Shown piece after piece: positions 7,205 to 38,131 of a stretch of DNA of 64,000 bases. Numbering within the stretch: position 1 is the first letter of the stretch; each line of letters begins with the position of its first letter. Both the position numbers and the translations under genes were made by a program. Where the stretch lies: assembly GCA_020628165.1 (NCBI GenBank), contig JAHDFM010000012.1, positions 1 through 64,000 on the forward strand, read 5' to 3'. The DNA is from Bdellovibrionales bacterium (GTDB lineage: Bacteria > Bdellovibrionota > Bdellovibrionia > Bdellovibrionales > UBA1609). The notes under the pieces were generated by a model. The model was not told the DNA's origin. It searched no databases and was given only the letters and a program-made list of their open reading frames with translations.

Positions 7205-8224
7205 TTATTTTTCTAAAAAATCATCGTGCCCTGGAATATTTTCAGGCATAGGTTCTATTTGATTAACACCTAAATGCAAAATTCTAGTTCCAGCATCACA
7301 ATTAGGATTTATACTTTTTCCAATAACGACACCTGACTTATCTGCTTTGATCTCTTCTTTTACTTCACCGAATACATTATAAACTCTAGCAATGACTTGC
7401 CCAACTTGAATTTCGTCCGCTAATTTAGGAAAAACATCAAGGATGCCTCCTTTTTTAGAATAAATCCAATAAGAGTGATCACAAATTGTGGCATTATGAA
7501 TTAAATCTTTAACTTCACCTTCAAGCATTTTTAAATGGATTAAAGTGTTTTTGATTCCGTCCAAGGTCTCATCAACCAAAGAGTGTTGAAATGTATTTGG
7601 GTTACCAATTTCAATTGTGATTGCAGCAATGCCATTTTCATTCGCCCAACCCCTTAGAGTTCCTTCTTCATCATATTTTTGAACTATGATTTGAGGGTTT
7701 TGAAGATAAGCGAGAGTTCTTGTATCTTCTTTTTCTAAGTCTGCTCGAATGTATAAACTATTAACCCTTCCAGGACTAGCTGTATGCAAATCCAATAAGT
7801 AATTAAACTGACTTACGATTTTAGACGTAAAGTAGTGAGCATACAATTTACTAGATGCCCCAGTTGGACTCCCTGGCATTATCCTGTTTAAATCAACATT
7901 GTCAGAAAATACTCTTTGATTCATTAAAAATGCAGGTACATTACTTATAGGTATCATCACTAAGGTTCCGTTTAACTCAAGTGGATCAACATCATTTATC
8001 AATTTAAAAATTGTAGACGTCCCATTGAGTTCATTGCCATGTACAGCAGCTGTAATTCCTAAAGTGGGTCCCTCATTTTTACCTTTAACAATAATTATTG
8101 GCAGTTTCCAAGGAACCCCCAAAGAATTATCTGTTAAATGAATATAGGCTCTATGAACTTTTCCATTTTCAAATTCATCTAAGGCTAAGTCTTCTTTTGT
8201 TTTAAAAACTATAACTTCATTCAT
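7205..8224 (-). CDS. AstE/AspA-type zinc-dependent deacylase (M14-like)
   Basis: A 339-residue protein of the succinylglutamate desuccinylase/aspartoacylase family. Zinc ligands are visible as H62-G-N-E65 (AAVHGNELNG) and H147 (LLDLHTASPGR). The substrate-binding Arg motif is NVDLNR, and ITIEIGNP supplies the late Glu. The last third looks like the barrel-sandwich tail of this family (GGILDVFPKLADEIQVGQ). It hydrolyses an amide on an acylated amino acid or a peptide C-terminus, but the natural substrate cannot be told. The first ATG after the upstream gene's stop (8224) is used; an in-frame TTG at 8254 would overlap that gene. It lies directly behind the ATP-grasp-like gene, so the two probably form an operon. 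Confidence 0.8.
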   Translation of the reverse strand: MNEVIVFKTKEDLALDEFENGKVHRAYIHLTDNSLGVPWKLPIIIVKGKNEGPTLGITAAVHGNELNGTSTIFKLINDVDPLELNGTLVMIPISNVPAFLMNQRVFSDNVDLNRIMPGSPTGASSKLYAHYFTSKIVSQFNYLLDLHTASPGRVNSLYIRADLEKEDTRTLAYLQNPQIIVQKYDEEGTLRGWANENGIAAITIEIGNPNTFQHSLVDETLDGIKNTLIHLKMLEGEVKDLIHNATICDHSYWIYSKKGGILDVFPKLADEIQVGQVIARVYNVFGEVKEEIKADKSGVVIGKSINPNCDAGTRILHLGVNQIEPMPENIPGHDDFLEK

Positions 8225-8234
8225 ATTTTCATAC

Positions 8235-9665
8235 CTACTTAATGATCTCTTCAATTAATGATTTATCGTTATCTAGTGACTTAAAAAGCTTCATCCTAAA
8301 ACCACCCTTAGAATTTATTAAAGTTTGAGCCATTTTATCAATAGCGATAATTGTTAAAACTGTTTGGATGTAAGCCTCTACCAAGTCATCAATACCAAGA
8401 CCCAAAGAGTTAAAGTCTTTTCTATCCATGAGTAGTAACCTGGATGTTTCTGAATCCCATTGATTTTCTGCTAATTTAACAGATAAGTTGGTTCCTAACA
8501 CTTCCCAGCTTGAGGTTTTTAAGTCTGCCTCTAAAGGTCTTCTTGCCCTCCTTGCATATAAAGCGCAAGGCAACAAACCCGATTTTGAAGCACAAACCAT
8601 CATACGCAAATCAGTTATATAAATGTTTCCTTTTAAATTTGGAACTGTCCCCACATGGAAATATTTTCCATGTTGACTAGTTGAACTCCAATTATAATGT
8701 CCTATCAAACTCTGTACTATAAACTGATCATAAGCATACTCACCACTCATAAAGCTATCTAACTCTTCATCACTCGTAATCGTCCAAACGCCTTGACCCG
8801 CATTTGAATATGGGTTTTTAACAACGGCTTTCCCGCCGAAACGATTAACCCATAAAGGAATCTCTAATTTACTCACATCTTTAATTGTTTCTGGCATTTG
8901 AATTTTTAAACCAGAATCTGCAAGATCAGAATTATATAACTCATATGCTTTGTTTGCTAATAGCTTATTTCTACCTCCGGACAAGCAAACTAAAATGGAG
9001 TTAAAAATAAATGTTTTAGTTATAATAGGAATTCTATTCCACGGCTTTTGGGTTACATACCTAAAAGCTGCCCTTATAGGAACAGTCTCTCCATCTGAGC
9101 AACTTACATGCATGACTCCATCTTTAAAATCAATAGATTGAGTTTCATTATCATAGTGCGGAACTAAATATACTTTTTCACCTGTCATGTCGGATAAAGT
9201 CTGTGCATAACCTGAAGTTTCCATATAGTTTTTGTCATAAATAACTGCCAAACTTCCTTTTGGCAGCTTTTTCTTTTTCTTAAGAGCTGGCAGAAACGTA
9301 TTTTCAATTAAAAATTTATAACCTCTGTGTTCATCATAATCAGTACGTGGAGGCATAGACTTCTGACCAGAAGGACATGAGTTGGTTTCCAAAACAACCA
9401 TCCTTCTATTGCCCATTTCTGTTGTCACATAAAATAAGTCAGATCCACCCCAAAAAAAATGTTTGGGATTGTAAGAAAGTGACTTAAACAAAGTATCCTC
9501 ATTTACTTGTGGATTTAAATGTAAATATCTTTTTATGATTCTGCTTTTATCCAAATTAAAAAAATGATTTACAATCGGGTGTAATTGGGAGTTCAACGCT
9601 TTCGGATAAAAATGATTATCCTGCTCAAAGTTATTTGGCTCAATAATTTCAATATTTTTTTTCAT
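8235..9665 (-). CDS. Putative ATP-grasp-like ligase
   Basis: A 476-residue protein that I do not recognise as a named enzyme. It has a glycine-rich loop VVKNPYSNAGQGVW (about 281-294) and a T351-D-L-R354-M-M-V segment, both in the order and spacing of ATP-grasp folds. A typical metal-binding E-x-N is not clear after the DLR element (only G-T-N393), while an E93-T-N95-S-C-P-S-G-Q motif occurs near the N-terminus. It could be a divergent or rearranged ATP-grasp ligase that joins a carboxylate to an amine. The next gene encodes an amidohydrolase of the AstE/AspA type, so the pair may make and trim an acylated amino acid or small peptide. Family assignment is inference. Confidence 0.55.
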   Translation of the reverse strand: MKKNIEIIEPNNFEQDNHFYPKALNSQLHPIVNHFFNLDKSRIIKRYLHLNPQVNEDTLFKSLSYNPKHFFWGGSDLFYVTTEMGNRRMVVLETNSCPSGQKSMPPRTDYDEHRGYKFLIENTFLPALKKKKKLPKGSLAVIYDKNYMETSGYAQTLSDMTGEKVYLVPHYDNETQSIDFKDGVMHVSCSDGETVPIRAAFRYVTQKPWNRIPIITKTFIFNSILVCLSGGRNKLLANKAYELYNSDLADSGLKIQMPETIKDVSKLEIPLWVNRFGGKAVVKNPYSNAGQGVWTITSDEELDSFMSGEYAYDQFIVQSLIGHYNWSSTSQHGKYFHVGTVPNLKGNIYITDLRMMVCASKSGLLPCALYARRARRPLEADLKTSSWEVLGTNLSVKLAENQWDSETSRLLLMDRKDFNSLGLGIDDLVEAYIQTVLTIIAIDKMAQTLINSKGGFRMKLFKSLDNDKSLIEEIIK

Positions 9666-10034
9666 ATTTTAAATATTATTTTTTTTTAAATGATTTGAAT
9701 ATATAAAAATTCAAACACTTTAAAATTTAAGTCAAAAGTATATTTAGTCATCCAAAATCATTTGAAACTATAGATTTAGGCAAACTTGCTAAACACCAAT
9801 ATGCTTGTAATTTAAACAACCTAATCCCATTTTAGCTCAAGTAGATCCCAAGCCTTAAATGGCAATGTAAATATCTGCCATTTGGGACCTGGAACCAGAT
9901 TTCAAATCTATATAATTTTCCTTAATATATTTTGCTATTTATTCCACGCCTTATGAAGACCTAACTCTTTATACATTTGTATAATATCAGAGACTTAACC
10001 AAAAATATCTTTGGCCATAGTTTTTTGTTTTGTT
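9666..10034. other. Intergenic with one 53-bp repeat copy
   Basis: This 369-base AT-rich gap separates the ATP-grasp-like gene from the DUF6817-like gene. It holds repeat copy A (9848-9900). I see no open frame or other convincing hairpin. The promoter for the ATP-grasp/AstE pair should be in the left half, before 9700. Confidence 0.55.
9848..9900 (-). repeat. 53-bp palindromic repeat, copy A
   Basis: This sequence matches copy B (11580-11632) at 50 of 53 positions in the same orientation. The core TTAAATGGCAATGTAAATAT is identical. The palindrome arms (9848-9864 and 9876-9892) are partly decayed here: two mismatches and two wobble pairs, and no T-run on either side. It is therefore unlikely to be an efficient terminator now. 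It lies downstream of the DUF6817-like gene, so copies A and B bracket that gene and the aldolase-like gene. Confidence 0.85.
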
Positions 10035-10376
10035 TCATAGCTTGAGTGAAAGTCTACAGTCATCCTTTCTTGATAAATTTTCCCATAAAGAATCTTTTAC
10101 ATGAACTCCAAAAATGTAAGTAAGATACTCAGCTTCAGAACCTATGATAGATTTTATATTTTCGCGTTCAGAAAAATCTATGGGTTGTTTTCTGTAAGAC
10201 TCAGTACCATAAATGCTATGACATAACTCTGATAAACATAAACTTTCAGAGCAGTTCCAGCTTTGTAGAATATTAAATGTACCTTTAAGATGGCTAATAA
10301 GCCCTTCATCTGTATGTGAAAACCCTTGAAGATTGTACTTATCTAGTTTTTTTAATATTATATCTAGATCAATCAA
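10035..10376 (-). CDS. DUF6817-like small protein
   Basis: A 113-residue cytoplasmic protein. The segments FSHTDEGLISHLKGTFNIL and LSELCHSIYGTESYRKQP carry conserved His residues and the HSIYGTE signature that I recall from DUF6817, an HD-like helical domain seen in metabolic and natural-product gene clusters. The function is unknown; the His residues suggest metal binding. It lies 94 bases after the aldolase-like gene on the same strand. These two genes together are enclosed by the two 53-bp repeats. Confidence 0.6.
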   Translation of the reverse strand: MIDLDIILKKLDKYNLQGFSHTDEGLISHLKGTFNILQSWNCSESLCLSELCHSIYGTESYRKQPIDFSERENIKSIIGSEAEYLTYIFGVHVKDSLWENLSRKDDCRLSLKL

Positions 10377-10470
10377 ATTTAAACCCTTTTAAGTACTTTA
10401 ATAATAAATGTTTTGTCGAATATCCTTCATTATACAAAGGTTCCAGGCAGAAATACCCTAATTTTTTCTT

Positions 10471-11553
10471 TTAACCCTCATTAACCATCCGCAAAAGAAA
10501 CTCTTTAATCTTAACTAATGGAACATCCACAGTTGCATCACCAATATACCATTCAGTTTTACAAAAACCGTCGCTATTTGGGTTACTAAAATGTACTAAA
10601 CCCCAAACACCTAGCTCATTGGCAGTTTTTAAGGATCGATTAAATAGTTCCTCACGATTTCCCTTTACATATAAGTGAAACATATTAACTTGAGGTATTT
10701 CTGGGTTAATATACATATTTTTTATATTTGAAACTAGATCCGCAATTTCTAATGTTTTTTTATAAAATGATTCAAATGAATTTATTCTTTTTTTTAAATT
10801 ATACTGCGCTGATAAATAAAGTGGTGAAGCAGTGATTAAGTTGCCACCATGACGACGGTTCCATATGCGAGCCTCTTTTATTAAATCAATAGATCCTAAA
10901 AGTGCAGAGCCTGCAACAGCACCGATACCTTTATAAAAACTGATATAAACACTATCAAATAAACTTGCGATTTGGTCATAGCTTTTTTGGTAGTAAGGTA
11001 AGCACTCCCAGACTCTTGCGCCGTCTAAATGAACAATAATATTTTTTGATTTTAAGTACTCAATTTGCTCTATTAAGTCTGACCAGGTAGGTAGTTGCCC
11101 GCCAATTTCACGCTGAGGAAGTTCAAAAATGACTGCTGAGGGTTTTGTTTTTAAGTTTTTTAGGTCTGCATGTGTAAACAGACGGTCTTTTTCACCAATT
11201 AACTCTGCTTTTAGATTATGTAATACCTTATAAGCATTTTGTTCATGTATCTCTAAATGACAAGTGGGGTGAAATGCAATTTGAGGGTTATTTTTTTTGT
11301 CAGTCCATATGCGCATGGCGATTAGCTGAGCCATGGTACCACTTTGTAAAAAAACACAGTCTTCATGCCCAAATAATTTTGCTAAATGAGTTTCAAAACT
11401 TCTAATGGAATCACCTTTACCGTATTGATCAGATTGATCTTCAGGTGAGACAACTTCACTCATTTCAGTAAAATACTGATGAGGAGTTTGGCGATAATTC
11501 CCTTGAAGAAATAAAGTACATTTTTTATGAATTTTTTCGGGGTCTGCTATCAT
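10471..11553 (-). CDS. Threonine-aldolase / beta-eliminating-lyase family PLP enzyme
   Basis: A 360-residue fold-type I PLP enzyme. The Schiff-base Lys is K208 in ISFYKGIGAVAGS, preceded by the pyridine-N-binding D177 in VHLDGARVWE. LQSGTMAQL near residue 70 is the phosphate-cup region. These features match low-specificity L-threonine aldolases, which cleave beta-hydroxy amino acids to glycine and an aldehyde, although related lyases share them. ATG 11553 is preceded by AAAGGT. The C-terminal 40 residues include a Trp-rich segment (WGLVHFSNPN, EWYIGDATVD) that differs from the housekeeping enzyme as I remember it. It sits next to the DUF6817-like gene and about 80 bases beyond the tmRNA 3' end. 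Confidence 0.75.
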   Translation of the reverse strand: MIADPEKIHKKCTLFLQGNYRQTPHQYFTEMSEVVSPEDQSDQYGKGDSIRSFETHLAKLFGHEDCVFLQSGTMAQLIAMRIWTDKKNNPQIAFHPTCHLEIHEQNAYKVLHNLKAELIGEKDRLFTHADLKNLKTKPSAVIFELPQREIGGQLPTWSDLIEQIEYLKSKNIIVHLDGARVWECLPYYQKSYDQIASLFDSVYISFYKGIGAVAGSALLGSIDLIKEARIWNRRHGGNLITASPLYLSAQYNLKKRINSFESFYKKTLEIADLVSNIKNMYINPEIPQVNMFHLYVKGNREELFNRSLKTANELGVWGLVHFSNPNSDGFCKTEWYIGDATVDVPLVKIKEFLLRMVNEG

Positions 11554-11570
11554 GTCATTTACCTTTGTTA

Positions 11571-11624
11571 AAAAAAATTCCAGGTCTTAAATGGCAATGT
11601 AAATATCTGCCATTTAGGACCTGG
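11571..11624 (-). terminator. Rho-independent terminator of tmRNA (within repeat copy B)
   Basis: On the minus strand the tmRNA 3' end is followed by a 17-bp stem with one wobble pair (arms 11608-11624 and 11580-11596, 11-base loop), then by AA and seven Ts at 11571-11577. This is a strong intrinsic terminator. It lies entirely within repeat copy B. Confidence 0.8.
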
Positions 11625-11632
11625 AACCAGAT
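11580..11632 (-). repeat. 53-bp palindromic repeat, copy B (adjoins ssrA)
   Basis: This is the intact copy of the family. It ends two bases from the tmRNA 3' CCA and forms the tmRNA terminator stem. Copy A is a 50/53 match in direct orientation 1.7 kb away. Copy C (15751-15803) is a diverged inverted match of the same length. Confidence 0.85.
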
Positions 11633-11634
11633 GG

Positions 11635-11985
11635 TGGTGGAGGCGGCGGGAGTTGAACCCGCGTCCGCAAATAATCCACTTTAAGGCACTACATGTTTAG
11701 TTTGTGTTTTTAGGCGATAGTCAGTCTTCCACAAACAAAATCCAAACTACCCCTCCTGCAATTGATTTAAGTATCAAACCTTGCAGAAAACAAATTGATA
11801 CCGAGAAGTCTAAAGTGGCGACTCATCAAGCCCGACTTCGCAGCAAGAATCGTCGTAGCTGCAACTTAGGCAGCTAATGCATAGTTATCATTAGCAACTA
11901 TAAACTTGCCCGTTTTAAATGGGACCTCGGGCGCCCATACATGCTCCTTAAGCTTCATGATCCACGTCGAAGCCTTTTCGCCCCC
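11635..11985 (-). ncRNA. ssrA: tmRNA (ssrA), tag ANDNYALAA
   Basis: This is a 351-base one-piece tmRNA. The 5' end reads GGGGGCGAAAAGGCTTCGAC and the 3' end closes with CGCCTCCACCA, so the 7-bp acceptor stem pairs and CCA is encoded. The T-arm GGTTCAACTCC is present. The resume codon follows TATAGTT, and the reading frame GCT AAT GAT AAC TAT GCA TTA GCT GCC TAA (11866-11895) gives the tag ANDNYALAA, a standard ClpXP/AP degradation tag. tmRNA rescues stalled ribosomes. Its 3' flank is a common integration site for islands, which is relevant to the repeat-bracketed cassette next to it. Confidence 0.97.
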
Positions 11986-12066: not shown

Positions 12067-13896
12067 ATGCGCTATTTATCCACTTTTTTACTATCTATCA
12101 TGGTTTTACTTACAATCAGTTCTTGTACTATGAACCCCAAGGTTGTTTATTCTCCTGAAGATATCACCGTTGAAAGCAAAAAATTAGATCAGTTTTTCCA
12201 AGCTGATATTGAAAAGTACATTGCAAGATCCCCTACATTTAGCACCTATTTAGGTCGTAAGGATCGATACCATGAACTCGATGATATAAGTTACAAAAGA
12301 GCTCAAGAAGATATAGCTCTCAATAAAGAATCTCTCAAACAACTGCGCTCATTCAACTTCAACAGTCTCAGCGAAAAGCACAAAGTGAGCTATAAATTGT
12401 ATGAAGAAAGACTACAAAACGGTATTGATGACTTTAAATACTTTCACAATCGTTTTTTTGTGTCACAAATGTTTGGACACCACTCAGACTTACCTAACTT
12501 CATGATAAATATGCATCAGATCAAAACTGAAACGGATGCCCAAGCCTATATCTCAAGGCTCAATGGGTTTAAAAAATCATTTAAACAGCTTGATGAAAAT
12601 ATGAAAACACAAGAGCAAAAAGGTGTACGCATGCCTCAATTTGTTTTTGCTAAGGTGATCCGCGACAGTCAAAATATTATCAGTGGCTATCCATTTACAA
12701 AAAGTAAAAAAGAACAAAGCCCTATTTACAAAGACTTTGCAAATAAAATACAAGCTGCCAAAATCTCTATACCACAACAAAAAAAGCTTCTTGCTGCACT
12801 CACCGAATCACTAAATAAATCTGTTGGACCTGCTTACACCAACTTCATCAGTTATATGCAAGAGCTAGAAAAAAGAAGTCAACAAGTTGCCGGAGCCTGG
12901 TCTCTTCCTGATGGAAAAAACTTCTACAACAATCGACTGCAAAGAATCACCAGCACTAAAATGAGCGCTATGGAAATTCACAAACTTGGCCTTCAAGAAG
13001 TTTCCCGCATTCAAGGTGAAATGCGTTCTATCATGCAAAGAGTGAATTTTAATGGCAACCTACAAGACTTCTTTACTTACATAAAAACTAACCCCAAGTT
13101 TCAATATCCAAACACTCAAGCTGGAAAAGACGCTTACTTAAAAGACACCAGAGCTATCATTGAAAATATGGAAAAAAAACTTCCAAAAGTTTTTAATGTT
13201 TTACCAAAAGCAAATGTTCAGGTACGACCTGTTGAACCTTTCAGAGAAAAATCAGCCGGCATTGCTTTTTACCAAGGGCCTGCATTAGATGGCTCACGTC
13301 CTGGCATTTACTATGTCAATCTATCAGATATGTCTTCGGTTGCTAAATATGACATGGAGGCTCTCGCTTATCACGAAGCTTTGCCTGGTCATCATATGCA
13401 AATCGCTATTGCCCAGCAGTTAAAAGACCTTCCTTTATTTCGAAGACTTGGCGGCTATACTTCATACTCTGAAGGCTGGGGACTTTACTCAGAGTACTTG
13501 CCAAAAGAAATGGGCCTATATCAAGACCCTTACTCTGATTTTGGTCGCCTAAGTATGGAAATTTGGAGAGCTTGCAGGCTTGTTGTCGACACTGGTATTC
13601 ACTATTACAAGTGGACTAGAGACCAATCCATTGATTACCTTAAAGCCAACACACCAAGCTCAGATGATGAAATTATGAAAGGTGTTGAAAGGTATTTTGT
13701 AATGCCTGGGCAAGCAACTGCCTATAAAATTGGGCAACTTAAAATATTAAGCTTGCGTGAAATGGCCAAAAAGAAACTTGGCTCCCAATTTGATATAAAA
13801 ACATTTCACGATCATGTTCTAAAAAATGGAGCTGTCCCGCTCAACGTTTTAGAAAGCAACATTAAGGACTATATTAAAGAGAGTAAAAGTTTATAA
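12067..13896 (+). CDS. DUF885 family lipoprotein (putative metallopeptidase)
   Basis: A 609-residue predicted lipoprotein: MRYLSTFLLSIMVLLTISSC with lipobox I-S-S-C. The mature protein is mostly helical and carries the DUF885 signature Y-H436-E-A-L-P-G-H-H443, a zincin-like HExxxGHH arrangement, followed by YTSYSEGWGLYSEYL and YFVMPGQATAYKIGQ, both typical of the family. It probably degrades peptides outside the cytoplasm; DUF885 members are largely uncharacterised. AAAAGGAG lies just before the ATG. A cNMP-binding protein gene follows after 64 bases on the same strand. Confidence 0.85.
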   Translation: MRYLSTFLLSIMVLLTISSCTMNPKVVYSPEDITVESKKLDQFFQADIEKYIARSPTFSTYLGRKDRYHELDDISYKRAQEDIALNKESLKQLRSFNFNSLSEKHKVSYKLYEERLQNGIDDFKYFHNRFFVSQMFGHHSDLPNFMINMHQIKTETDAQAYISRLNGFKKSFKQLDENMKTQEQKGVRMPQFVFAKVIRDSQNIISGYPFTKSKKEQSPIYKDFANKIQAAKISIPQQKKLLAALTESLNKSVGPAYTNFISYMQELEKRSQQVAGAWSLPDGKNFYNNRLQRITSTKMSAMEIHKLGLQEVSRIQGEMRSIMQRVNFNGNLQDFFTYIKTNPKFQYPNTQAGKDAYLKDTRAIIENMEKKLPKVFNVLPKANVQVRPVEPFREKSAGIAFYQGPALDGSRPGIYYVNLSDMSSVAKYDMEALAYHEALPGHHMQIAIAQQLKDLPLFRRLGGYTSYSEGWGLYSEYLPKEMGLYQDPYSDFGRLSMEIWRACRLVVDTGIHYYKWTRDQSIDYLKANTPSSDDEIMKGVERYFVMPGQATAYKIGQLKILSLREMAKKKLGSQFDIKTFHDHVLKNGAVPLNVLESNIKDYIKESKSL

Positions 13897-14781: not shown

Positions 14782-15765
14782 TTGAAATGGTCAATCCACC
14801 CCACCGAACTCAAGCTCAAAAATAAATGGTCCATTAACGGCGGATCGGTACAAACAAAAAAGCATCCCATCATTACGGTCTCTGATGATCAACACACAGG
14901 CCATGGTGAGATTGCCCTATCTACCAAAGAGGCTTCAAATGATTTAATAGTTGAACAACTTAAAAGAATAGATTTCAGCCAATTTGGTTCCCAGTCAGAC
15001 ATTCAACAATCACGCCTTCATCCTGCTATTAAACACGGGCTTGAACTCGCTTTGATTCATTATTTAGTTGATAAAAATAACTCTAATATAAGTCAGTTCT
15101 TTTCCCTTAAAGAGAACCCCAGCATTAAAACAAACTTTTCAATTCCGATTTTGCCAGTTGATAAGGTGGCAAACTACATTGAGCAAAACAGCGTCCACCA
15201 CTATGAAAGCTGTAAACTAAAAATTGACGGTCAAAAACCTTTAGACTTTATTAGAGAAGTTGCCAGGAATTACAAGGGCACACTGCGAATCGATGCTAAC
15301 GAATGTTTCACAACTGCTTCAGACTGCCTAGCACTCATAAATAAATTGCACGACATACAAGTGGATTTTTTTGAACAACCACTAGGCAGAGACAACTTAC
15401 AAGAAAGTGAACTTCTCAAAAAAGAATCTCCTTGGCCGATAATAGGTGATGAATCATTACAGAACGAAGACATTAATTCGTTTCATGTTACTTGCTTTGA
15501 TGGCCTTAATGTTAAGCTTGCAAAAGCGGGTGGCCCCACTCAAGCTCTACGACAAATTCAACAGTGTCAAAAACTCGGTCTTAAAGTTCTTGTCGGGTGC
15601 ATGGTTGAAACATCCCTTAATATCTCTGCAGCCATGCAAGTGGGGCAACAAGCCGATTGGTTTGATTTAGATGGTTTTTTACTTTTGGAAAATGATCCCT
15701 ACGAATTAGTTAAAAATAACCATGGAAACCTAACTTTAAACCCTTCAAAAGGTTCCAGGTCCTGA
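14782..15765 (+). CDS. Enolase-superfamily dipeptide epimerase-like enzyme
   Basis: A 327-residue member of the muconate-lactonising subgroup of the enolase superfamily. Expected catalytic elements are present in order: K145-L-K147 (CKLKIDG), metal ligands D171 (RIDANECF), E198 (FFEQPLG) and D223 (IIGDESL), the late Lys K245 (NVKLAKAGG), and VGCMVETSL. This set fits L-Ala-D/L-Glu-type epimerases, which process murein peptides; o-succinylbenzoate synthase is a less likely alternative. It is somewhat shorter than usual because the N-terminal cap is compact. The last codons (G-S-R-S and the stop) lie in the palindromic repeat copy C, so the native C-terminus may have been replaced. The start ATG is the first in frame. 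Confidence 0.75.
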   Translation: MKWSIHPTELKLKNKWSINGGSVQTKKHPIITVSDDQHTGHGEIALSTKEASNDLIVEQLKRIDFSQFGSQSDIQQSRLHPAIKHGLELALIHYLVDKNNSNISQFFSLKENPSIKTNFSIPILPVDKVANYIEQNSVHHYESCKLKIDGQKPLDFIREVARNYKGTLRIDANECFTTASDCLALINKLHDIQVDFFEQPLGRDNLQESELLKKESPWPIIGDESLQNEDINSFHVTCFDGLNVKLAKAGGPTQALRQIQQCQKLGLKVLVGCMVETSLNISAAMQVGQQADWFDLDGFLLLENDPYELVKNNHGNLTLNPSKGSRS

Positions 15766-15803
15766 ACGGAAAAGTGATTCTCTGTCATTGAGGGCCTGAA
15801 ACC
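15751..15803 (+). repeat. 53-bp palindromic repeat, diverged copy C
   Basis: Reverse-complemented, this sequence aligns without gaps to copy B over 53 positions with about 35 identities, including a 13-base identical end (AGGACCTGGAACC on the B strand). Its own arms GGTTCCAGGTCCTGAA and TTGAGGGCCTGAAACC pair with a few mismatches. The stop codon of the preceding epimerase gene (15763-15765) lies inside it. Confidence 0.65.
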
Positions 15804-15917
15804 GAATGGTGATTTACATGACTATTGTCCTGATAAAACATATTTTATATATAGAACTTTAGTTGATTTTATTAGATTTCACTCCGAGAGACCTCCTTTA
15901 AACGCTATAATAATTGA

Positions 15918-18532: not shown

Positions 18533-18710
18533 TCATGGTTATTTTCTCGTTTTTTTTAATCGCTATTTTATCTCTATATATAAGTTTTAACTCTTCTGTA
18601 TGTTGCAATTAAACAGTTATTTAAGAGCAACGTCTTAAAAGTGTAAAATTACTGTTAAGTGACTTAATAACTTTGAAATCAACCCGTTTTTTATACATAA
18701 TGAAAGCCTT

Positions 18711-19304
18711 ATGAAACTCTTTTTTGTTCTGGCATTGTTTATATTCATCGCTCCACTTCATGCTAAAAAAATAGTATTTTTAGGAGACTCCTTAACTGAA
18801 GGCTACGGCATACCACTAGATAAGGCTTACCCAAAACTGATTGAAAAAGAGCTTAAAAAAAGCTTTCCAAAATTAACAGTTGTGAATGCTGGTAGCAGTG
18901 GATCAACTACAGCTAGTGCCCTGTCTCGCCTTAAGTGGTTACTTAAATCTAAACCAGACATTCTTTTTATTGCTCTTGGAGGAAATGACGGTTTACGTGG
19001 AGTTAATGTAAATGCCAGTGAAACTAATTTACAACAAGCCATCGACTTAGCAAAAAATAATAATGTCCAAGTCATTTTAGCTGGCGTAAGAATCCCAATG
19101 AATTACGGCGAGAAATATCGTAAAAACTTTGAAAATATATTCATACGTCTTGCAAAAAAAAATAAAATCACTTTTATCCCTTACCTCCTCAAAGGAGTGG
19201 CCGGCGTGAAAGAATTAAATTTACCCGATGGCATTCACCCTAACGTCAAAGGCCATGAAGTCATTATGAAAAACACCCTCCCAACCATAAAGAAGCTGTT
19301 ATGA
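18711..19304 (+). CDS. tesA: TesA-type SGNH esterase / acyl-CoA thioesterase I
   Basis: A 197-residue exported SGNH hydrolase with a short signal peptide (MKLFFVLALFIFIAPLHA). Block I is FLGDS27LTEGYG, block III is ALGGNDGLRG, and block V is D173-G-I-H176-P-N, giving the Ser-Asp-His triad. This is the arrangement of periplasmic TesA (thioesterase I/protease I/lysophospholipase L1). Its stop overlaps the start of the next gene (ATGA), so it is translationally coupled to the ABC transporter ATPase, reflecting the tesA-ybbA-ybbP association known from Proteobacteria. Confidence 0.9.
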   Translation: MKLFFVLALFIFIAPLHAKKIVFLGDSLTEGYGIPLDKAYPKLIEKELKKSFPKLTVVNAGSSGSTTASALSRLKWLLKSKPDILFIALGGNDGLRGVNVNASETNLQQAIDLAKNNNVQVILAGVRIPMNYGEKYRKNFENIFIRLAKKNKITFIPYLLKGVAGVKELNLPDGIHPNVKGHEVIMKNTLPTIKKLL

Positions 19305-19960: not shown

Positions 19961-22500
19961 GACTGATTAAATATTTCGTATCACAACTCATTAATAACAG
20001 AAGTTTTAGTTTACTGTTTATCTTAAATTTAGCCATTGGTTTGAGTAGCTTTGTAACTCTCGATGTCTTTAAAAACTCAATTAGCACTTCCATCAATAGT
20101 AAATCAAAACTTTTGCTAGGGGCAGATTTTGGCCTCAGCTCTCGTCAGCCACTTTTAGATGATAAATTCAACACGGCTTTTGATGAACTTAAGCAGCCAG
20201 ATGCAGAAACCTCTATCGTAGAAACTTTCTCAATGATTGCTGGCCCCACCGGGCAATCTCGTCTAGTGCAAATTAAAGCCATTGAAGAGGACTTTCCTTT
20301 TTATGGCGACATCACAATAAATAAAGACAATAAAAACCAAGTTGGTGTTGCTTCACGATTGCAAAATGCAGAGATTGCCTGGATCTATCCAGAACTACTC
20401 ATACAATTGAATGTCAAAATCGGTGAAAAAATTAAAATAGGTCAAACTGAGTTTGTCGTAAAAGCGATTGTTGAAAATGACAGCGCTGAAGGCATCACCA
20501 CGAGCATGGCACCAAGAGTTTATATTGGCCTTAAAAATTTAGAGAAAACACAACTCATTCAATTTGGCTCTGTGGCCTGGTACTCAAAACTGTATAAAAT
20601 TGAATATGAGGATTTTGATCAGTTAATAGATCTCAAACTTGATCTTAAAGATAAACTGAGTGAACCTTCTTTACAAATATACACCCATAAAGATGTCTCC
20701 GAACAAACCTCACGAATTTTAAAATACCTCAATGATTTTCTTGGCCTGGTTTCCATAGCAGCTCTGTTCTTGTCTGCCATCGGTGGCGCTTTTTTGTTCC
20801 GCTCATACTTGATCAAACAAATCAAACCCATTGGTATTTATTTATCTCTTGGCATGACTAACAAACAAGTTTTCTTACTACAGTCTTTGCAGCTATTAAT
20901 GCTTGGTGTGATCAGTGCTTTATTGTCTCTCATATTTGGTTTTACTTTAAGCCCGCTACTGAAAGTCATCACCCAAGGTCTACTGCCATTTGAACTACAA
21001 ACGCAGCTGCAAACAGGAACTATTTATCTTATTTTAATTTTAGGCTGTGTTGGTTCTATTCTGATTGGTGCGCCTATCCTCAGCCAGATTTATAACATCA
21101 AACCCAATATACTTCTTAGAAACCAAACCACTCAGTTTTTAAAAAGAAACTTTGGATTTTGGTTGTCATTATTCATAGGCTTAGTGTTTTTATGGGCTCT
21201 GTCTGTTTGGCAAGCTGACTCCGTCAACACTGGGTCCTTATTCACAGGTCTATTTATTTTAGCTGGCTTATTGATCACTGGTTTTGCTTACTCAGTTTTG
21301 TATTTACTAAAAACTTTTAATTTATTTAAAAGCCTGTCTTTTAAATGGGCTGTGCGCGACATTGTTCGCTTGCCGTTTTCGTCTATATCTATTTTCTTAA
21401 GCATTGGCCTGGGAATGCTTTTGCTGAATCTGATTCCGCAGATCAAAGCTTCTATCAATTACGAACTCACTATGCCTAAAGATTCAAAGCTACCGAGCTT
21501 TTTTATGTTTGATATTCAAGAAGATCAAATGAATGCTCTGAAAGACATCACCAAAAAGTACAACATTGACCTAGTTCAAACCTCGCCTATGGTGAGAGCT
21601 CGTCTTAAAAAGATCAACAACAAAGATTTTAAAGACCTACAGATCGATGGTGAAAATTTAAACCGCGAACAACAGCGCAGGCAAATGTCTCGCAACCGTG
21701 GCTACAACTTATCGTACCGCAATGGCCTCGGCATCGGTGAAAGCATTCACAAAGGCACTCCTTTGAATGAATACGACCACAGTGCAATGACCGGCATATC
21801 TCTTGAAAAACGTTTTTCTGAGCGCTTAGATGTTAAAATTGGCGATGTTCTCTTATTTGATATTCAAGGAGTGGAGGTCGAAGGTAAGATTGTAAATATT
21901 AGAAAAGTTCAGTGGACCACCTTTCAACCCAACTTTTTTATTTTATTTCCGGATGGAGTGCTCAATGAGGCTCCTAAGACGTATATTTCTTCTGTTCCTA
22001 AAATTTCTGGTAAGATCAAACAAGACTTTCAGAATAGTGTTGTCAAAACTCTTCCTAATGTATCGATCATAGATGTCACCCGTTTAGTTAAACGCATTAA
22101 AGGTATCATTCAACAAATGAGTTGGGCTCTACAGTTTATGACTATCATTTGTTTATTAGCCGGGTTTTTAGTTTTATTTTCCATCACCAATTATCAAGCA
22201 AGGCAAAAAAGCAAAGACATAGCCCTATTAAAAAGCCTCGGAGGGTCATTTTCTTTGATTCGCTCATTCTTTAATTGGCAAGTGCTTATCGTTACTGTTT
22301 TCTCTGGATTGTTTGGAGTGCTTGTCTGCTTTATTTTGAGTTACTTTTTGTCGATGCTCTTGTTTGACTCTAAGTGGATTGTGGAGTTACAAACACCAAT
22401 CCTTTCAGTATTAGGTCTTATTCTAGTGTCATTACTGATTAGTTATCTTGCAACCAACAAAAGCCTCAACATTAAGGCATCAAAGCTTTTAAACGATTAA
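19957..22500 (+). CDS. ybbP: YbbP-type FtsX-domain ABC permease
   Basis: An 847-residue inner-membrane permease. It has one N-terminal membrane segment, a periplasmic domain (about 40-260), then two FtsX-type four-helix blocks, with the second at the C-terminus (about 720-840) and another soluble domain between. The layout and length match YbbP. The start is TTG 19957, which overlaps the stop of ybbA as TTGA, a coupled start; no ATG is better placed. With TesA and YbbA it should form an envelope lipid or acyl-compound handling system, whose substrate is not established. Confidence 0.88.
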   Translation: MRLIKYFVSQLINNRSFSLLFILNLAIGLSSFVTLDVFKNSISTSINSKSKLLLGADFGLSSRQPLLDDKFNTAFDELKQPDAETSIVETFSMIAGPTGQSRLVQIKAIEEDFPFYGDITINKDNKNQVGVASRLQNAEIAWIYPELLIQLNVKIGEKIKIGQTEFVVKAIVENDSAEGITTSMAPRVYIGLKNLEKTQLIQFGSVAWYSKLYKIEYEDFDQLIDLKLDLKDKLSEPSLQIYTHKDVSEQTSRILKYLNDFLGLVSIAALFLSAIGGAFLFRSYLIKQIKPIGIYLSLGMTNKQVFLLQSLQLLMLGVISALLSLIFGFTLSPLLKVITQGLLPFELQTQLQTGTIYLILILGCVGSILIGAPILSQIYNIKPNILLRNQTTQFLKRNFGFWLSLFIGLVFLWALSVWQADSVNTGSLFTGLFILAGLLITGFAYSVLYLLKTFNLFKSLSFKWAVRDIVRLPFSSISIFLSIGLGMLLLNLIPQIKASINYELTMPKDSKLPSFFMFDIQEDQMNALKDITKKYNIDLVQTSPMVRARLKKINNKDFKDLQIDGENLNREQQRRQMSRNRGYNLSYRNGLGIGESIHKGTPLNEYDHSAMTGISLEKRFSERLDVKIGDVLLFDIQGVEVEGKIVNIRKVQWTTFQPNFFILFPDGVLNEAPKTYISSVPKISGKIKQDFQNSVVKTLPNVSIIDVTRLVKRIKGIIQQMSWALQFMTIICLLAGFLVLFSITNYQARQKSKDIALLKSLGGSFSLIRSFFNWQVLIVTVFSGLFGVLVCFILSYFLSMLLFDSKWIVELQTPILSVLGLILVSLLISYLATNKSLNIKASKLLND

Positions 22501-34373: not shown

Positions 34374-35534
34374 ATGCAAAAAACAATCATGTTACTTGGC
34401 TCTGGAGAGCTTGGAAAAGAATTTGTTATTGCCGCCCAAAGGTTAGGCCAAACTGTTATTGCTGTCGATAAATATGAGGGGGCCCCCGCTATGCAAGTGG
34501 CTGACAAGTTTGAAGTGGTCGACATGCTCAGTGGTGATGAACTTGAAAAAATTGTGCGCAAACACAAACCTGACATTATCGTTCCAGAAGTTGAATCCAT
34601 TAGAACTGAAAAATTAAAACAATTTGAAGGAGAAGGAGTTTTTGTCGTTCCTACTGCAGAGGCCACCCACCTCACCATGAACCGAGATGCCATCCGCGAC
34701 GTCGCTGCCAATGAACTCGGTTTAAAAACACCTAAGTTTGCCTATGCAGAATCGGCTGAAGAATTACAACAGGTCTCAGAACAAATTGGCTTTCCTTGTG
34801 TGGTCAAACCTGTGATGTCTTCTTCAGGAAAAGGGCAGTCCGTCGCCAACAACGTGAAAGAGCTTGCCGACTCTTGGACCTACGCTTGTGAAGGCGCTAG
34901 AGGTGATACTCAACGAGTGATCATCGAAGAATTCATTCGCTTTGAACAAGAAATCACTTTACTTACTGTTAAGCAAAAAAGCGGACCCACCGTGTTTGTA
35001 AAGCCAATTGGTCATCGACAAGAGCGTGGTGATTACCAAGAATCATGGTTACCAGCCGACTTAAGCAGTGACTTACTACACAAAGCACAAACCATGGCCA
35101 AGGCTGTGACGGATCGCTTAGGTGGAGCTGGGCTATTTGGAGTTGAGTTTTTTATTACAGAAGATGATGTTTACTTTTCAGAACTATCACCACGCCCACA
35201 TGACACAGGAATGGTCACACTCATCTCACAAAACCTGACTGAATTTGATCTTCACTTGAGAGCTATTTTAGGCTTAAAAATTCCTGACATCCAGTACTAC
35301 CACAAAGCTGCGGCGTCTCATGTGATCCTCGCAGACAAAGAGAGTGACACTCCCCCATACTTCATGGGCCTCAATGATGCTCTCAAAATTTCTAACACAG
35401 AAGTGAGAATATTTAATAAGCCATCAGCTAGACCGTTCCGTCGAATGGGAGTTGTGCTCTCTCATGCTGACGATATAAAAACGGCAAGAGCTTATGCAAG
35501 CAATGCCAGTCGCAAGATAGAGCTTAAGTACTAA
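34374..35534 (+). CDS. purT: Formate-dependent phosphoribosylglycinamide formyltransferase PurT
   Basis: A 386-residue ATP-grasp enzyme of purine synthesis: it makes formyl-GAR from GAR, formate and ATP. The N-terminal [21 protein letters not shown], the ATP-grasp segment [39 protein letters not shown] (metal and active-site Glu residues) and [13 protein letters not shown] are all PurT features, and the length is normal. CCAAGGAGATTTC precedes the ATG. A membrane protein gene begins one base after the stop, so they share a transcript. Confidence 0.95.
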
Positions 35535-37904: not shown

Positions 37905-38131
37905 ACATCACTTAAAAATTTTGTTTGAAATTATACAATGACAAGCTGAAACATCAGCTGGACTTCTCAGTTAAAACCTGAATGGCTCTTAACAGAAACC
38001 TGACATTCATCGATTGTCAGTCTTGATTTACCTCATTTTTCTTGAACAATTGCAGTATCTTTATTTTAATAGTGCTTAAATTATACGGCTCTAGATTAAG
38101 AGCCCACAGACAAACATAAAAGGATAAAAAA

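Follow-up and report, generated by a model that had tools for sequence, protein, structure and literature searches.

Two direct repeats that bracket a two-gene cassette beside the tmRNA gene of a Bdellovibrionales bacterium belong to a family of about 11 palindromic, terminator-like hairpins in the same genome. This set is probably a small, lineage-specific family of palindromes of ~60 nt, mostly two-way intrinsic terminators, that has been copied locally in variable stretches of the genome. The repeats lie in the window, by which we mean the whole 64,000-nt stretch analysed here (positions 1 to 64,000 of contig JAHDFM010000012.1, referred to as C39 among the contigs of this genome). We call the copy next to tmRNA T1 and the distal one T2. 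The features of the locus are as follows.

11635..11985, minus strand: tmRNA (ssrA), tag ANDNYALAA (ARAGORN; Rfam RF00023, 172.7 bits).
11577..11632, minus strand: T1 hairpin, the tmRNA terminator, with a stem of ~20 pairs and then U8 (74.9 bits to the family model R3).
10471..11553, minus strand: pyridoxal phosphate (PLP)-dependent beta-eliminating lyase, threonine-aldolase-like, 360 aa (PF01212, E 1.2e-31; under the NCBIfam cut-offs).
10434..10470, plus strand: possible remnant, an isolated GGTTCCAGG arm within the cassette, immediately after the aldolase-like stop codon (from sequence).
10035..10376, minus strand: DUF6817 gene, 113 aa, TTG start (PF20680, E 7.3e-22, profile positions 4–82 of 85).
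9845..9900, minus strand: T2 hairpin, without a U-run, its stem partly kept by G–U pairs (71.8 bits to R3).
7205..9665, minus strand: gene pair left of T2, conserved, encoding a 476-aa protein without a Pfam match and an AstE/AspA-like deacylase.

The direct copies at 9848–9900 (T2) and 11580–11632 (T1) agree at 50 of 53 positions, with mismatches at 9851, 9853 and 9884, and the 60 bp flanking them on the outside are unrelated (20 and 15 of 60 bases in common). Repeat finding returned them as the top repeat family of the region, extending to 69 nt at 86%, and a BLAST search of the genome against itself gave T1 and T2 as the only near-identical places, which taken alone would point to a pair private to this locus. 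Coordinates and Pfam matches thus bear out the first-pass annotation, which had described two 53-bp repeats, 50/53 identical, around a DUF6817-like and a threonine-aldolase-like gene. It had also taken one repeat, two bases from the CCA, to be the tmRNA terminator, and this holds for T1, which begins two bases past the tmRNA CCA, folds strongly (−28.5 kcal/mol, z −7.1) and is followed by eight U residues. T1 therefore combines a stable GC-rich stem, a U-run and a position just after a gene, as expected of an intrinsic terminator, and by sequence most other family members show the same combination of stem, U-run and gene end. T2 folds at −24.9 (z −4.5) with the help of G–U pairs and fails as an intrinsic terminator because the U-run is absent. 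Its description as a decayed duplicate fits the missing U-run and the G–U-patched stem, and the duplication is likely.

Kinship among the copies points the same way. In the family alignment, T1 and T2 have an identity of 0.89, whereas all other pairs reach at most 0.77 and most lie near 0.58; the two are 94% identical to each other, compared with about 60% to other members. T1 and T2 begin with ATCTGG at the point where AAAAAGG is the usual family sequence, an ATCT flank that is missing from the other members, and their loops are the same. Because they are the closest pair and share the ATCT flank, a local duplication is likely, and because this flank sits directly against tmRNA, T2 was presumably copied from T1. 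The copying is not fresh, since each of the two carries private changes. The earlier alternative that two repeat-family elements happened to flank the cassette comes closest to our reading in that both copies are members of the hairpin family. The other earlier alternative, entry of a cassette beside ssrA with duplication of the terminator, may apply: a local duplication is likely, but the far end has no ssrA fragment, the region has no integrase, and the relatives compared show no empty site. Without T2, within-cluster similarity is only slightly greater than between-cluster similarity (permutation p about 0.08), so local copying is supported for T1 and T2 and only suggested elsewhere. In the mechanism we favour, T1 would terminate tmRNA and T2 would be its local duplicate, which, as no transcript would depend on it, would have lost its U-run and have a decaying stem. 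The copying itself may have occurred by local duplication or by recombination during gene gain.

The clear members of the family sit in three tight clusters: three in the window, at 9.8–15.8 kb of C39 (T1, T2 and the copy at 15747), four at 35.2–38.0 kb of contig C29, beside tRNA-Leu, and four at 10.2–20.1 kb of contig C18, downstream of tRNA-Ala. The third member in the window is the following.

15747..15808, minus strand: hairpin overlapping the stop codon of an enolase-superfamily gene at 14782–15765 (62.0 bits).

A search with the inner stem led to a third site, on C29, with more hairpins of the same make beside it. A five-copy model run on the genome gave further clear copies in C39, C29 and C18 only, with 150 of 1999 candidates scored, and the family count is therefore a minimum. 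When the arm pattern was run over the whole genome with up to two mismatches, all nine matches with zero or one mismatch fell inside the same three clusters; outside them, two-mismatch matches were about as frequent as in a reversed control, and their folds are not those of family hairpins. Motif-independent repeat finding recovered copies in C29 and C18. With R3, a model of 11 members, these members score 54–75 bits, as rows of its own training set, versus at most 21 for other stretches of the genome tested; one weak, probably diverged candidate was found on contig C4 and one broken-looking one on C40. The isolated arm at 10434..10470 was not significant in a model search without filters (12.3 bits, E 0.21). 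Uniform placement would give ~10.8 clusters, compared with the three observed, and three or fewer never occurred in 100,000 trials. The copies are related beyond the stem, with partly shared loops in the model and pattern searches and in the alignment, as in a dispersed palindromic repeat family.

The family appears to be specific to this species or lineage, as no other species yielded a member in the searches made. R3 found no member in 451 kb from relatives (best score 19.7 bits, at noise level), and GGTTCCAGG has eight occurrences in an 86-kb sample covering parts of two clusters but a single one in ~410 kb of relatives. Across GTDB, a strict hairpin pattern gave no matches and the arm pattern gave six, about the chance level and none in a family hairpin; the single match of the arm pattern in a viral scan likewise has no such hairpin. 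In Rfam, only tmRNA was matched above the cut-off and the hairpin has no family; a 'mir-4477' match at T1 was discarded as below cut-off (E 0.84).

Members are ~60 nt long and palindromic, typically AAAAAGGTTCCAGG...CCTGGAACCTTTTT, with ends GGTTCC...GGAACC. They fold as hairpins, with 77% of cells pairing in register versus 28–46% when slid. Covariation over the 11 members barely exceeds that in shuffles, which leaves selection on the hairpin structure unproven, and the consensus that RNAalifold itself derived from the 11 members had no pairs, so the structure in R3 was set by hand. Of the 11 members, of which all but the C18 copy at 20042 have assigned neighbours, seven lie at or just past a stop codon or the tmRNA end. 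Among them are the C29 copies at 35263, 36575 and 37254, 10–30 bp past stops, and the C18 copies at 13379 and 18665, 13 and 58 bp past stops. Judged from such positions and from their stems and U-runs, the hairpins would mostly function as terminators. Two placements argue against this: the C18 copy at 10180 lies between divergent open reading frames, where a terminator is unneeded, and T2 lies off a gene end, 134 bp from the DUF6817 stop, its nearest. The C29 copy at 37929 is also off a gene end, 134 bp from tRNA-Leu. The strong clustering near tRNA and tmRNA genes (tDNAs) is likewise not predicted by a plain terminator family.

The three clusters occupy variable stretches near tDNAs, because one side of each tDNA is conserved and the other has no genes in common among relatives. 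Upstream of ssrA, a DUF885 gene is common to the window and the same-genus genome G002 (60%); downstream, everything differs from the window in G002 and in a second genome, G003. There, both carry an XRE-type regulator, accompanied by a serine recombinase in G002 and by other genes in G003, all named from sequence; the hairpin is absent downstream of ssrA in both. In two same-genus genomes, small serine recombinases, recognised by sequence, lie downstream of ssrA (L033:9273-9875 and L045:4953-5570), and both of these variable regions carry a tautomerase/epimerase-like gene pair. At the other two clusters, tRNA-Leu is conserved on its nusA–rimP side and tRNA-Ala on its RidA side; on the opposite side, within the length of the relatives' short contigs, no gene is in common. 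The layout 3′ of a tDNA has exceptions: the copy at 15747 is 5′ of ssrA, and on C18 the copies start 2.5 kb from the tRNA. Directly 3′ of tRNA-Leu on C29 (L110:3998-4109), we also observed a 56-bp tandem duplication, 95% identical, between the tRNA 3′ end and the nearest hairpin; it contains the tRNA-end-like GCCTCGG.

The DUF6817 and lyase genes, both on the tmRNA strand, are the sole genes between T1 and T2. They are ordinary domain and enzyme genes of a variable region, and nothing marks them as a mobile unit. For the aldolase-like gene, a G002 homologue at a different locus has 58% identity, a value usual for orthologues in this genus. Plasmid searches gave only distant homologues, all below 60% identity, and viral scans gave no relatives of either cassette protein. 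Left of T2, the 476-aa gene has 68–76% identity with homologues from a number of other genera and families but 57–59% with those of its own genus, a pattern that would mean transfer or old paralogy. The pair at 7205–9665 was adjacent in every relative's stretch read, at differing places in the genome, and is possibly an unnamed two-enzyme module.

The rival that survives best is gene capture at the hairpins, in which incoming DNA with one hairpin recombines with a resident hairpin and leaves a gene unit flanked by direct copies. Entry could involve a circular form, a recombinase or short homology, and of several such units the one with the aldolase-like and DUF6817 genes would be the latest. 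We consider this unlikely, though several observations agree with it. T1 and T2 are the closest pair; C18 has a similar layout, in which direct copies at 10186–10236, 13380–13430 (80%) and 18671–18721 (63%) bracket gene units; each of the three clusters is close to the 3′ side of a tmRNA or tRNA gene, with the 5′ neighbours of that gene conserved across the genus; and the cassette is slightly AT-richer than the window (GC 0.323 versus 0.372). Against it, the relatives compared offer no empty site: the proposed comparison, a search for ssrA followed by a single repeat without the cassette, returned none, the nearest relatives having unrelated genes downstream. Nor is a recombinase nearby. The tyrosine recombinases found in the genome (99% complete) number three, two XerC/D-like by sequence and size (304 and 308 aa) and one 175-aa protein of the catalytic domain only, and the genome's PF00589 proteins lie on C12, C13 and C53, none beside a cluster. 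In C29 the hairpins point in both directions, and the copy at 15747 is located 5′ of ssrA. The 175-aa recombinase is encoded on C13 (L154:1456-1983), away from the hairpin clusters.

Two more specific mechanisms fare worse. Capture in this lineage by a novel integron-like process, with units of one to a few genes inserted next to tmRNA or tRNA genes and each adding a hairpin as terminator and recombination site, is very unlikely. As to integrons proper, AAC stands at the 5′ edge of attC sites and GTT at the 3′ edge. The 11 aligned members show GGTT at the 5′ edge and AACC at the 3′ edge, so an attC array fails the R-box test; in the published description of attC, R boxes included, GTT is on the top strand and AAC on the bottom strand (PMC2727003). 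None of the three tyrosine recombinases was recognised, from sequence and size, as IntI-like. We regard as similarly improbable that the hairpins are REP/REPIN-type elements spread by a RAYT (Y1 transposase) of the same genome. In favour are their short palindromic form, their position at gene ends and the presence of a single intact RAYT-like gene (C33:49544, 216 aa). The palindrome that flanks this gene, AAAGGTGGTCCGNAC...TTTGCGAAAC, is of another kind, which led us to reject the hairpin as the REP of the only clear RAYT in the genome. Model and pattern searches placed no family member on C33, and ~11 copies in three clusters contrast with the 69–235 REPINs per Escherichia coli genome (PMC8049555). 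The C33 RAYT-type transposase (L176:1400-2140) bears its own inverted palindromes (AAAGGTGGTCCGNAC...).

A classical genomic island inserted by a tyrosine integrase at the ssrA 3′ end, with T1 and T2 as attachment-site duplicates, is extremely unlikely here. In its favour, tmRNA is the most enriched tDNA target (PMC4383910), and other genomes of this order do carry fragments of an ssrA 3′ end. Against it, such insertions leave behind a displaced piece of the target tDNA (PMC4383910); here, the repeat stops two bases outside ssrA, the ssrA 3′ 20-mer is single-copy in the window at up to three mismatches, and no integrase lies between T1 and T2. The proposal that the 1.7-kb unit is an island with an attachment pair in ssrA is thus contradicted. 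In G041, from a related family, ssrA is followed, 5.4 kb downstream, by a second fragment of an ssrA 3′ end, ~85 nt long (L077:5992-6075, 11457-11808), a layout that by its sequence carries the signature of a true tmRNA island.

The apparent att-flanked cassette is then part of a small hairpin family that marks where genes end in the variable neighbourhoods of tmRNA and tRNA genes, and most likely reflects a small REP-like terminator repeat family in such a region. Gene gain may have caused the copying, a case helped by the C18 layout but by no recombinase or empty site. Should the hairpins do no more than terminate transcription, they warn against reading direct repeats at ssrA as attachment sites. 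Gene units gained and lost exactly between hairpins in sister genomes would instead point to a new way of collecting genes.

The family resembles several known systems in part. Like tDNA islands of the Islander type, it is associated with variable genes that immediately follow the 3′ ends of tmRNA and tRNA genes, but the T1–T2 unit has neither a displaced gene fragment nor an integrase. Integron attC arrays and clusters of attC sites lacking integron-integrases (CALINs) share palindromic sites of similar size, similar within a species, between single genes or small units; the hairpins differ in their GGTTCC...GGAACC ends, in their mixed orientation in C29 and in the lack of a recognised IntI-like integrase. 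REP and palindromic-unit families are likewise short, lineage-specific extragenic palindromes, mostly at gene 3′ ends and with local duplicates, whereas the hairpins have ~11 copies in three clusters, a longer stem, terminator-type A/T flanks and no cognate RAYT found. In Neisseria and Haemophilus, pairs of uptake sequences form two-way intrinsic terminators on repeated motifs. As in those genera, a repeated motif in inverted pairs could end transcription from both sides, although here the motif occurs mainly as whole hairpins in three clusters and not genome-wide.
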